A DNA stretch of 64,000 nucleotides, taken from NCBI RefSeq assembly GCF_014270105.1, contig NZ_JACNMF010000005.1:1-64000 (forward strand), in the 5' to 3' direction. The notes below the pieces were generated by a model that was not told the origin of the DNA, did not search any database, and saw nothing but the letters and a program-made list of their open reading frames with translations. Shown one piece after another: positions 48,871-53,462 of the stretch. Source of the DNA: Hyunsoonleella aquatilis. Its GTDB lineage: Bacteria; Bacteroidota; Bacteroidia; Flavobacteriales; Flavobacteriaceae. Both the position numbers and the translations under genes were made by a program. Position 1 is the stretch's first letter; the number at the start of each line of letters is the position of its first letter.

Positions 48871-49331
48871 TAGAGCTGAAACGGACCAACCATACCGATA
48901 AGGATTTTGTGCATCTCGTATCACAACTCAACGCGTATTTGAAGGTTATTGACGGGAAAGATCATGAATTCTACATGCAATACAATGGCATTGAGGTTCT
49001 CAATAATGTTGTAATAGCTTATCGGGACAACATCCCTGTCGGTTGTGGCGCTTTTAAAACTTATGACGAAAACAGCGTAGAAATCAAACGAATGTTTACC
49101 CAACCCGAATTTAGGGGAAAGCAGGTAGCTACTGCCGTCCTACAAGGTTTGGAAACTTGGGCAAAGGAATTGGGATTCAATTCCTGTGTTTTGGAAACTG
49201 GAAAACGCCAAATAGAAGCTGTGAATTTTTATAAGAAAAATGCCTACCAAATTATTCCCAATTTCGGGCAGTACCAAGGTATAGAAAATAGTTTGTGTCT
49301 TGAAAAACAATTGAACAATGAAAAAAGATAA
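48867..49331 (+). CDS. GNAT family N-acetyltransferase
   Basis: 154 residues. Acetyl-CoA-binding stretch [17 protein letters not shown] and a C-terminal FYKKNAYQ. Substrate unknown. Overlaps cca by 4 bases and ctaA by 14, so the three are one coupled unit. Confidence 0.88.
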
Positions 49332-50334: not shown

Positions 50335-50492
50335 TTTCACAATTTACCTTTCTTTTGCGTAAGAAAGTATCTATATTTACATTGAAACTTTTAAAAAATA
50401 AAAGTTTTATATACGTGACTTTGTTTTCAAAAACTTCTGCATAGCCAAACTAATTGGTGGTATAAAAGGAAAAAAGTTCTGCATATAAACAA
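50335..50492. other. Intergenic DNA between ctaA and the cassette region
   Basis: AT-rich, with two small hairpins: CTTTCTT/AAGAAAG (50348-50367) and AAACTTTTA/TAAAAGTTT (50385-50407). A near direct repeat ACTTCTGCATA / AGTTCTGCATA occurs near 50437 and 50475. Confidence 0.5.
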
Positions 50493-50502
50493 GTTGTGTG
50501 TA
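50493..50502 (+). other. Cassette boundary box (R'-like) before the HEPN-recombinase gene
   Basis: GTTGTGTGTA is the exact reverse complement of TACACACAAC at 51797-51806, just behind the gene. In an integron cassette the start of the unit pairs with the R'' box behind the gene in exactly this way. Confidence 0.65.
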
Positions 50503-50511
50503 ATTTGAGAA

Positions 50512-51792
50512 ATGACAACAGAAGAATTAATAAATAAGGAATTTGAAAAAAGGAAATTTATTCCTGCTACTAAAAAAGTCTATTCTCAAAAACTGACTGA
50601 ATTATTTGAATTTTACAGTCATATTGAACCTGCAAATATAAATTTTGACCAGATAGATTCTTACTTGTATCGAATTAAGAAAAGTCAATCACCATCGAGT
50701 ATGGAGAATTGTTACTGGTCATTTAAGCTATATTTCAATGAAATTCTTGGGAAAAATTATCCATTTCACTCATTAAGATTACCTTTAAAAGATTCTCACA
50801 TTCCTAATGTAATTTCCCAAAATCAAATTAAAGAACTACTTGAAACTTTTGAAAACTTAAAACACAAAACCCTAATAACATTACTGTATGCGACTGGAAT
50901 GAGAGTTGAAGAGTTATTGGAACTAACACCAAAAGACATTCTATCTGACAAAAAAGAAATTAGAGTAAGAAATACTAAAACTGGAAAAATAAGATACCCT
51001 CATCTCTCTGATAAGCTATTAAAACTTCTTCGAGAATATTACGTTCAGTACAAACCAAAAAAATATTTATTTGAAGGTCAAAAAAAAGACACGAAATATT
51101 CTGTGTCTAGTATTAGAAAAATATTAGAGAGAGCGAAAATAAAAGCAGAAATAAAAGAAGAACTTACATTAATAAGTTTAAGATATTGCTACATTAAACA
51201 TATGGTTGAACAAGGTCAATCTTTACCTGCATTACTCAAAAGTATGCAAGTTCATAATTCGGACACAGTTCAATTTTATTATAATCTTTGTGGGAAAAGC
51301 GACAAAATAAATTACTCACCAATTGACAAATTGGGAGTTATAATTGACACTAATAAATTCAATACCATAGAAATTGAAAAAATCTTTGATTCGATTTCTA
51401 ATTTGGACGAAAGAGATTATTTAAGAGAAAGCATCGCTTGTTTAAAAGTCGGAGCAATGAGAGCTGGAGTCGTATTTGTTTGGGCTTCAGCGATTAGAAA
51501 TTTACAAAACAAGTGTGTCGAAATTGGGTACAAACAAATAAACGAAGCTCTAAAAAAAATTAACCAAAGAGAAAAACCAATAAAACAAGTATCAGATTTT
51601 GAGAGACTGAAAGATAAAACCACTTTGGATATAGCAAATAAAATCGGACTTATCACAAAACATCAAAAAGGAGAATTAGATAAACATTTAGATTTAAGAA
51701 ATTATTGTGGACATCCAAGTGAATATTATCCAGAAACCCAGAAAATAAAGGCATATTTAGAAGATTTAATTAATATAATTTTAAAAAAATAA
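50512..51792 (+). CDS. Tyrosine recombinase-like protein with C-terminal HEPN-like domain
   Basis: 426 residues in two parts. Residues 1-265 form a phage-integrase-type core: SAM-like N-domain, then LLYATGMRVEELLEL with R131, a KTGK hairpin (156-159), LISLRYCYIKHM with R224, H248, and the tyrosine pair Y256-Y257. The usual histidine of HxxR is I221. Residues 300-426 are helical and end in LRNYCGHPSEYY, i.e. R396-x4-H401, the RNase motif of HEPN domains, preceded by the AxRAGVVFVWASAIRNL helix typical of bacterial HEPN proteins. So a DNA-strand-exchange-like module is joined to a possible RNase. It sits alone in a cassette-like unit. What it does is unknown; role in phage defence or in cassette mobility are both open. 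Confidence 0.75.
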   Translation: MTTEELINKEFEKRKFIPATKKVYSQKLTELFEFYSHIEPANINFDQIDSYLYRIKKSQSPSSMENCYWSFKLYFNEILGKNYPFHSLRLPLKDSHIPNVISQNQIKELLETFENLKHKTLITLLYATGMRVEELLELTPKDILSDKKEIRVRNTKTGKIRYPHLSDKLLKLLREYYVQYKPKKYLFEGQKKDTKYSVSSIRKILERAKIKAEIKEELTLISLRYCYIKHMVEQGQSLPALLKSMQVHNSDTVQFYYNLCGKSDKINYSPIDKLGVIIDTNKFNTIEIEKIFDSISNLDERDYLRESIACLKVGAMRAGVVFVWASAIRNLQNKCVEIGYKQINEALKKINQREKPIKQVSDFERLKDKTTLDIANKIGLITKHQKGELDKHLDLRNYCGHPSEYYPETQKIKAYLEDLINIILKK

Positions 51793-51796
51793 AAAC

Positions 51797-51930
51797 TACA
51801 CACAACAATGGCTATAAGTAATTGCTGGTTATAGTCTACTTCTGAATATCCTCGCGGATTTTCTATTCGGTTTGTATTTGCTAAATTAGGTGCTGAAACA
51901 CGCAACTAATCTTATACAAACACGTTAGGC
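51797..51930 (+). other. attC-like site behind the HEPN-recombinase gene
   Basis: Starts at TACACACAAC and ends in GTTAGGC (51924-51930), a perfect GTTRRRY core. The outer arms pair as TATAAG / CTTATA and the neighbouring TTGC / GCAA, with one unpaired T beside CTTATA, like the extrahelical base of attC. The middle has its own hairpin (GAATATCC / GGATTTTC). Total about 134 bases, within attC range. Confidence 0.65.
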
Positions 51931-51948
51931 CCAATTAACCAACAAATT

Positions 51949-53295
51949 ATGATCAAAACAAATAAGAAGATTTTAAACCCAATAGCTGTATTCTGTCTGC
52001 TTTTACTTTTTGCTTGCAAACAAGAAGTTAAACAAGTAAAAGAACCTTCATTAGAAGATAAAATAGCGTTAGCAGTAAAGTCTCGGAAAATTCCTAACCT
52101 GACTGAACAAAAAGTAAGTTTTACAGTGCCTGAATCGATCATTGGAAGAGGACCTCAAATAACCGAGGTATTTAGCCATATGGAAAACTATATTCCTACT
52201 GTTCTGATAGAAAAAGGAAATACGAAAACAACAAAGCTTCCAGAAAATATAAGTCATACCCTCGGCCAAGAGATTCTCACCAGTACCTTCTTTAAAAAGG
52301 AAACATCACTTGACCAAATTTGTAATAAAAAATATGTTAATGGAGTGATTGTTCTGCATAAGGGCCAAGTGGTTTATGAAAAGTATCCGGAAATGAAACA
52401 CACTGACAAGCATTTTCTTGGTTCTGTCAGTAAAACATTTTTAGGAACCATAATCGCACACTTGGCAGATGAAGGAAAACTTAACGAACAGGATTCGATT
52501 GGGAAGCATATTAAAGAATTTAAAGGTAAGCCATTGGCAAACGTAACTATTGAAAATTTGTTAAGGATGACCTCAGGAATCAACTGCCGAGAAATGGAAA
52601 AAGGGTCCTTTACTGACCCGAACCATTGTTTTTATAAATTACTTCAGCATTCTGCCGTTTATACGGAGCCAAATCCTGGAGTTGAAGAAAGCTTAATAGA
52701 ATTATTGGCTAGTTCGGGAAAAACTGAACCCGCTGGGCAAACCTACGATTATACTTCTGCCAATTCTGTTATTCTGACTACCATCGCTGAAAGAGTTTCT
52801 TCCAAACCTTTTCATGAGTTGGTTCAGGAATATATATGGACAAAAATCGGAGCTGAAGATGATGCAAGGGTAACGCTATCCAGTACTGGTGTTGCTGGAA
52901 GTTACGGTTTAATGCTAATGCGCTTGAGAGATCTGGCCAGATATGGACTGGCCTTTACAGATGATGCTACTACAAAAATAGCATCGGCACGATATATAAA
53001 TCAAATCCATACGGGAGATAGAGCATTATTTAGATCTGAAGGCGGAACAGATCAGCATTTGAGGAAACTATTTTATGAAGGACAAGGTGCAGATTTTCAG
53101 AGCTATCATTGGGATGTGATTTTTGAAGATGGTGACTTCTTCAAGGAAGGCTTTGGAGGTCAGGGTCTTTACATATCCCCTTCAAAAAGATTAGTTATTG
53201 GATTTTTTAGTGCAAGCAAGGATGAGACGAATAATAACATGTATATGACAGCCCTTGTTCGTAGTTTGGCAATACTAGAACAATTTAAAGTATAA
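51949..53295 (+). CDS. Serine hydrolase (class C beta-lactamase-like) lipoprotein
   Basis: 448 residues. Lipobox LLFACKQ at the end of the signal. The Ser-x-x-Lys motif is SVSK in FLGSVSKTFLG; the YxN-type element is DYTSANS; a GFGGQGLYI stretch takes the place of the KTG/HxG box. This is the beta-lactamase/D-aminopeptidase/esterase fold; substrate unknown. It lies in a cassette-like unit beginning TTAGGC and followed by GCCTAAC at 53312. Confidence 0.85.
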   Translation: MIKTNKKILNPIAVFCLLLLFACKQEVKQVKEPSLEDKIALAVKSRKIPNLTEQKVSFTVPESIIGRGPQITEVFSHMENYIPTVLIEKGNTKTTKLPENISHTLGQEILTSTFFKKETSLDQICNKKYVNGVIVLHKGQVVYEKYPEMKHTDKHFLGSVSKTFLGTIIAHLADEGKLNEQDSIGKHIKEFKGKPLANVTIENLLRMTSGINCREMEKGSFTDPNHCFYKLLQHSAVYTEPNPGVEESLIELLASSGKTEPAGQTYDYTSANSVILTTIAERVSSKPFHELVQEYIWTKIGAEDDARVTLSSTGVAGSYGLMLMRLRDLARYGLAFTDDATTKIASARYINQIHTGDRALFRSEGGTDQHLRKLFYEGQGADFQSYHWDVIFEDGDFFKEGFGGQGLYISPSKRLVIGFFSASKDETNNNMYMTALVRSLAILEQFKV

Positions 53296-53311
53296 ATTAG
53301 TAAAAAACTGA

Positions 53312-53444
53312 GCCTAACAAGGGCTGTAATTCAGCGTGGCTGAAGAACTAATATGAACAAAAAAACAACAAATACGGCTAATTTCTGCTCCTGAAGGATT
53401 CTGCCGAATCATTCCACACCGAAATCATAGCCGAGACCTTATGC
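53312..53444 (+). other. attC-like site behind the serine hydrolase gene
   Basis: GCCTAAC (53312-53318) is the exact complement of the GTTAGGC that opens this unit. Arms GGCTGTAATTCAGCGTGG and CCACACCGAAATCATAGCC pair with few mismatches and one extrahelical C. The end box is CTTATGC (53438-53444), where GTTRRRY would need G in first place. Confidence 0.6.
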
Positions 53445-53462
53445 AAAACATTTAAAAGATTT

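Follow-up and report, generated by a model that had tools for sequence, protein, structure and literature searches.

The window, a stretch of 64,000 nucleotides from Hyunsoonleella aquatilis, carries an open reading frame whose product joins a tyrosine-recombinase core to a putative HEPN ribonuclease domain (Table 1). An initial annotation made from the sequence alone had described an integrase-type core fused to a HEPN-like RNase domain inside a mobile cassette. The ORF is real, the residues R131, I221, R224, H248, Y256 and Y257 and the RNYCGH motif at residues 396-401 lie where that annotation had placed them, and the core is recognised by Pfam (Phage_integrase at residues 100-258, E 6.7e-25). 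The mobile cassette can now be specified as one of the integron type.

Table 1. Features at and next to the recombinase-HEPN locus (positions in the window)
Feature	Positions	Strand	Basis or remark
Recombinase-HEPN fusion protein, 426 aa	50512-51792	+	ORF list; alignment with 20 more full-length homologues
Tyrosine-recombinase (XerA/integron-integrase-like) core, residues 1-275	50512-51336	+	Pfam PF00589, NCBIfam XerA, Foldseek 2a3v
HEPN ribonuclease-like domain, residues 283-426	51358-51789	+	AF2 model, VIA-align, PADLOC PD-T7-3
Motif RNYCGHP, residues 396-402	51697-51717	+	Within HEPN domain
Integron-type gene cassette, 1431 bp, one sense ORF	50494-51924	+	Complementary ends, R', DNA shared with genome G014
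attC-like site of the fusion cassette	51798-51933	+	Similar copies in L013 and in own-genome arrays; covariation model
Probable second cassette	51925-53438	+	Ends GTTAGGCCC / GAGCCTAAC match at 8/9
ORF in second cassette	51949-53295	+	Serine-hydrolase-like, identity by eye

The RX4H motif alone proves nothing, since chance would give 0.42 such motifs in a protein composed like this one, and conservation and fold therefore had to decide. What makes the motif significant is that R396, N397, C399, G400, H401 and P402 are invariant in 21/21 aligned fusions and 25/25 domain sequences; the possibility, raised by the initial annotation, that the motif might not be conserved in homologues can thus be set aside, RNxCGHP being found in each of the 21 full-length fusions. 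E306, a candidate for the conserved acidic residue that HEPN domains have near the motif in an upstream helix, is likewise invariant in all 21 fusions (local sequence ESIACLK), and the Ex3[KR] form of PMC3710099 is absent around it. According to the accessible passages of that paper, HEPN domains are defined by Rx4-6H with a polar residue after the arginine, the motif lying at a helix end and at the start of the following loop. RNYCGH, with its invariant R, N and H, fulfils the first part of this definition, and the modelled domain fulfils the second, as a helical bundle with the motif at a helix end. Modelled alone with AlphaFold2 (51346-51789, 25 sequences), the domain reaches a pLDDT of 90.2 and a pTM of 0.84; its predicted helix 105-122 includes R118 and is directly followed by H123 (model numbering), so that the motif closes a helix and leads into a loop.

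Structural comparison was carried out with Foldseek and with VIA-align, the latter taking a second look at Foldseek's top 322 chains with one row per entry. In VIA-align, ranks 1-25 are HEPN-type (Z 10.3 to 6.3), with AF0298, AbiA, HepT, Csm6, MtlR, AbiV and HepS among them, and the first unrelated row follows at rank 26 with a Z of 6.1; AbiA, SsR10, HI0074 and HepS are presumed by us to be HEPN-type. For most of the 25 ranks this status comes from the title of the entry or from PMC3710099. A Z of about 10 lies below the caution level of about 13 that the VIA notes state for helical bundles. Foldseek alone is not significant for the HEPN model, its best E being 0.26; a single HepT toxin-antitoxin system supplies all the chains at ranks 1-14 (E 0.26-1.1), and the rows thereafter are gyrase, taken as noise. 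The integron-cassette HEPN protein 3jrt is absent from the structural and PDB match lists of the domain. In Pfam, no family exceeds its cut-off for the C-terminal domain and none of the 25 members matches at 0.01. Single-sequence searches of the domain yielded nothing usable in Pfam or the PDB, and a profile search of the PDB remained without significance (best E 0.18, 'Dandelion-hepn'). The assignment rests on structure, motif and PADLOC profile, and by the model and its structural comparison the C-terminal fold is of the HEPN type, as had been proposed.

The core belongs by its best matches to the integrases, with XerA as best NCBIfam model (all models fall under their cut-offs, XerA far under) and the integron integrase 2a3v as best Foldseek match of the full-length model (E 1.3e-9). 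That model has a pLDDT of 84 and a pTM of 0.46, and its domain arrangement is not trusted. Across the 21 fusions, the residue set of an active tyrosine recombinase (R, K, HxxR, H/W, Y) is not fulfilled. Arg I has become Glu in twelve and Asp in six, with Arg left in two and Thr in one; Arg II is Lys in 14 and Arg in seven; His III is kept in two. At the HxxR histidine, already reported as missing in the window protein (Ile221), the family has Lys (10), Arg (8), Ile (2) or Thr (1) and never His. The annotation had also pointed to the pair Y256-Y257. Both tyrosines are present; the one conserved in the family is Y256 (Tyr in 19, Phe in 2), position 257 being Tyr in 2/21, and the family alignment may be read as showing a one-residue deletion relative to XerA.

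The window protein is among the least decayed fusions, and of the catalytic residues counted it lacks the HxxR histidine alone. Arg I and His III together are retained only by the window and L031 copies among the 21, and likewise by the copy in genome G014. The presence of Arg I, Arg II, His III and Tyr in the window and L031 copies speaks for one of the options offered initially, a functional cassette recombinase whose RNA-binding tail has a regulatory role; such an enzyme is nevertheless very improbable, because the recombinase site has decayed (the HxxR histidine absent in 21/21, Arg I turned into Glu or Asp in 18/21) while the RNase motif is invariant. Lysine at the HxxR position is used by some active recombinases; it occurs in ten of the 21 fusions, none of which has Arg I. 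It remains possible that the window copy still cleaves DNA to some extent.

Loss of the active site has not been accompanied by loss of constraint. When the window and G014 copies are compared, the core has an omega of 0.037 and the HEPN part one of 0.026, so that both domains are, as far as can be judged from sequence, under purifying selection; together with the decayed site this implies that the core is used, but in most copies not as a recombinase. Its net charge lies between +12 and +19 in all 21 fusions. The HEPN part is the more conserved of the two in 206/210 fusion pairs. In a tree of the core, a branch (100/100) divides the 21 fusions from the other rows, 12 integrases and two of XerC/D-like type. 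Within the fusions, the window and L031 copies split off first, and the remaining 19 are grouped with modest support (83/78). The simplest story would be one fusion event followed by decay.

Besides the window copy, 20 further full-length fusions were found, in Bacteroidota and Ignavibacteriota. An assembly artefact or a chance fusion was considered and is ruled out because copies occur in other genomes, and the reservation that the fusion might exist only here falls away with it. A domain search of 397 genomes of the family gave matches in seven, the window's own included, with full fusions in G000 (the window genome), G014 and G044, a truncated one in G061 and other architectures in three. 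A profile search of the phylum gave 12/395 genomes, again counting the own one, with the fusion in G000 and G528. The scan of a contig collection gave 25 loci: 20 full-length fusions, four short proteins of about 247 aa (L039, L052-L054) and L055, which is cut by a contig end. Two of these 20 fusions, L034 (from Algibacter) and L049, are the G044 and G528 copies again, as judged by equal sequence. The G014 copy comes from another genus and encodes a protein 98 % identical to that of the window. The search with the window protein alone gave no confirmed relative in the genome contig or viral contig collections, the profile search of viral contigs gave no relative, and no phage record matched the HEPN part. 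On plasmids, none of the best 5000 records held 80 % of the window protein; the HEPN part matched eight records at 24-28 %.

Relatives of the HEPN domain also occur outside the fusion. Among 13 homologues of other architecture, nine have the RX4H spacing and four do not, these being Rx5H or Rx6H by eye. At seven loci (L010, L021, L022, L039 and L052-L054), the same domain is seen in proteins of about 250-280 aa that follow a gene of about 165-210 aa, possibly as a two-gene system; four of these seven HEPN proteins were run against Pfam and none exceeded a cut-off. The truncated copy of G061 (L009) has a transposase ORF upstream, IS3-like by eye.

What defines an integron-type cassette, namely a gene with an attC-like site, R''/R' ends and arrays beside an integrase, is fulfilled. 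GTTGTGTGT lies 19 nt upstream of the ATG and ACACACAAC immediately downstream of the stop; these two ends complement each other exactly (9/9), and an R' (GTTAGGC) is found at 51924. The window and the G014 locus, otherwise different, have the DNA from 50483 to 51914 in common at 94 % identity, and its last ~130 bases recur about nine times, own copy counted, in 17 kb of G014 (L013). Exact 9/9 complementary ends are present in 10/21 fusions and are reached by 0 or 1 of 500 mononucleotide shuffles each. In comparison, 13 of 155 other ORFs of at least 150 aa in the same sequences have ends matching at 8/9 or better (ten of them 9/9), and 12 of these 13 belong to loci whose fusion also has cassette ends. 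With the attC model, the fusion is directly followed by a site in five cases (L032, L033, L046, L047 and the window), L046 being newly added; overall, cassette ends are found in 11/21 fusions and none are shown in 10/21.

The 27 attC-like copies share a 13-pair stem in which 98.6 % of cells are paired, with a covariation of 0.333; shuffles give 0.071 and sliding gives no more than 0.044. Six pairs are changed on both sides, a number also reached by 28/500 shuffles, and further pair types are not exceptionally numerous (116/500 shuffles). The structure was derived from the same alignment as was tested, and the window site is within the training set of the model. In the window site 4/13 stem pairs are broken; of the remaining 26 sites, 25 have the stem intact and one has a single broken pair. 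The window cassette may therefore no longer be mobile. Its attC has the appearance of a chimera between two attC types. The probable second cassette has a weak attC-like site (53310-53447, 18.9 bits, E 0.24) and a degenerate R', CTTATGC.

The window copy stands outside the cassette arrays of its genome, one of which lies beside a XerA-type integrase (contig C15) and another along contig C20, where cassettes match the PADLOC models PDC-S49 (9.2e-60) and AriAB (2.3e-108). Large attC-like arrays with XerA-type integrases were observed at L098 (G000:C15:1-9000), L099 (G000:C20), L100 and L013 (G014). Four array-side integrases score 180.2-197.2 bits on TIGR02249, whose cut-off is 265, in two stretches that leave about 179-238 unmatched, and they do not fulfil the definition of a canonical IntI with its additional domain; in three that were tested, about 95-105 residues are added at the N-terminus, and these match nothing in Pfam at 0.01. 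For Bacteroidetes, IntegronFinder 2.0 (PMC9024848) names one complete integron, in Salinibacter, while intI genes are listed in the Bacteroidetes/Chlorobi group (PMC2426708). A XerA-type array integrase, or what is left of one, lies near three fusion copies (L033, L047 and L035, the last by eye). Together with the place of the core in the tree, next to integrases found beside attC-like arrays, with its best Foldseek match and with the cassette ends of 11/21 copies, this proximity would suit a guard of integron activity, in which the core acts at attC hairpins, as a competitor of the real integrase or as a sensor, and the RNase fires or the array is silenced upon recombination or in the presence of single-stranded DNA. 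We consider such a guard decidedly unlikely: there are no DNA-binding data, and 10/21 copies are without cassette ends.

The surroundings of the locus suggest a break in synteny. The flanking genes at 49318 (ctaA by our reading) and 55143 (a glycosyltransferase by our reading) lie on different contigs in nine of 11 other genomes of the genus and about 280-315 kb apart in the other two. In five relatives, DNA similarity to the window ends at about 50.3 kb and resumes at about 55.1 kb, and the compared stretches contain no attC-like match. The flanks being apart and the similarity interrupted, the window cassettes therefore sit in a foreign or rearranged stretch; between 50334 and 55143 there is either a rearrangement at the cassettes or a misjoin of the draft assembly, which is not excluded.

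Darracq et al. and Kieffer et al., both cited in PMC13092281, deal by their titles with defence genes carried by integron cassettes. In G014 the fusion sits in a large cassette array, preceded by a cassette with SIR2 (PADLOC E 2.2e-128), HerA (3.3e-245) and a 175-aa ORF and followed by one with PtuA (2.6e-122) and PtuB (2.4e-63) of Septu. The initial annotation had proposed to look for defence genes beside homologues; such genes lie beside the G014 copy, whereas the PADLOC matches near the other fusions are modest and partly generic. At a PADLOC threshold of 1e-10, 90 models were matched when 112/116 neighbouring ORFs (at least 130 aa) were searched, from 19 of the 20 other fusion loci, without L031 and leaving out three ORFs of L046 and one of L049; one model was matched by the 44/44 listed ORFs of the window that served as control. 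This comparison is not relied on, because redundancy is common among the 25 models viewed (PDC-S05), some of which are generic (BrxH), and because the control is a smaller set from one contig; the number of proteins behind the 90 models is not given. As a separate observation, the PtuA-like ATPase (L013:7101-8333, minus strand) has an RX4H motif of its own, RNYFAH, near its end.

A more direct link to defence is provided by PD-T7-3. Its PADLOC profile matches the window domain with an E of 8.8e-5 and 9/25 domain members at 0.01 or better (best 6.9e-6); the other 16 do not reach it at 0.01. Relatives of other architecture match more strongly (8/10, best 1.1e-41), and in profile-profile comparison the fusion HEPN finds a set in which 4/5 match PD-T7-3 with a probability of 98.6 %. 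On this comparative evidence the fusion HEPN is homologous to the HEPN of PD-T7-3. Only positions 3-121 of the 432 in the PD-T7-3 profile are matched by it, and the architecture of that family, an N-terminal HEPN with the family's C-terminal part, is not fulfilled by the fusion. PD-T7-3 protects against phages according to the excerpted text of PMC9519451 and is listed with a HEPN domain in that of PMC10952713. A defence role of the fusion is not shown; it would rest on the HEPN homology to PD-T7-3 and on the neighbouring cassettes in one genome.

The same RNase might instead act in stress or addiction, stabilising cassette arrays as toxin-antitoxin cassettes do and having nothing to do with phage defence, while the core would repress its own cassette or bind attC. 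A stress-response role for integron-cassette HEPN proteins is proposed in the available part of PMC3710099, ParD/ParE-like ORFs occur by eye in the same G014 array, and the core is both basic and eroded. However, the adjacent antitoxin gene of a type II toxin-antitoxin system is missing, as far as sense ORFs of at least 60 aa are concerned: the cassette contains no second one, and a single antisense ORF of 79 aa. The match of the HEPN relatives to a phage-defence protein is a further argument against this role, which we regard as unlikely.

Given what was obtained by computation, namely the fusion, the HEPN-type fold, the invariant motif, the decayed recombinase site, purifying selection, the cassette and the homology to PD-T7-3, the probable reading is that of a cassette-borne, one-protein RNase toxin with a dead integrase core as DNA sensor; of the options first put forward, a defence or toxin protein is the one that fits best. 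In such a protein the C-terminal HEPN would be the working part, a metal-independent endoRNase that is probably dimeric. The N-terminal core of XerA/integron type would have lost recombination and persisted as a basic module for binding DNA, with the task of sensing or of positioning the protein and of restraining the RNase. Its ligand could be DNA of foreign origin, from an invading phage or otherwise, or single-stranded DNA in folded form, for instance an attC hairpin; once the ligand is met, the HEPN would be released and cut RNA, and growth or infection would be stopped. RNase activity, dimerisation, DNA binding, the ligand, autoinhibition and phage defence are all inferred in this scheme, with no experiment behind them. 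It is also conceivable, if rather unlikely, that the sensor is a converted copy of the integron-type platform's own integrase; the dead core would then recognise folded single-stranded (attC-like) or recombining DNA and switch on the HEPN, as a self-mobile guard through which DNA uptake or recombination would lead to growth arrest.

Bacterial immunity commonly relies on HEPN RNases as effectors, and for many of them the signal that switches them on is unknown. The fusion offers a legible sensor candidate, a recombinase without its chemistry in which the basic DNA-binding frame is kept, and opens a sharp question, namely which DNA turns the RNase on. The fusion further draws attention to large attC-like arrays and their XerA-type integrases in a family of Bacteroidetes.

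Among the literature matches listed (titles, abstract openings and passages of open-licence PMC articles), none describes a recombinase-HEPN fusion or a HEPN effector with an integrase-derived part. As far as these matches show, what is new is the presence of HEPN and dead integrase in one protein, each ingredient being known separately. HEPN proteins in integron cassettes are known (3jrt, in the passages of PMC3710099), and a dead recombinase serving as DNA-binding regulator is exemplified by MrpR (PMC10516654, likewise in part). With the HEPN toxins covered in those passages of PMC3710099 (HepT, AbiV, Csm6, 3jrt), the fusion shares the fold, the Rx4H with its polar residue and the helix-end position; unlike them, it has no MNT, CARF or ATPase partner and no Pfam family over cut-off, and is tied to a recombinase core. 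With PD-T7-3 it shares the homologous HEPN, whose motif in the closest matches here reads R-N-x-C-[AG]-H-P, but PD-T7-3-like proteins have the HEPN at the N-terminus followed by some 300 residues, whereas in the fusion it is C-terminal behind an eroded recombinase. The phage repressors MrpR/YopR and SroF, as portrayed in the extracts of PMC10516654, have a recombinase fold without recombinase chemistry, like the core of the fusion; they are repressors without an RNase domain and, at ranks 42-46 of the fold list, not specially close. The nearest rows to the core in the tree are the XerA/integron-type integrases of Bacteroidota, which by eye have an SPxD-like C-terminus in common with it. The eight XerA-type integrases viewed by eye keep R, HxxR, H and Y, whereas the fusions have lost most of these and carry the HEPN domain.
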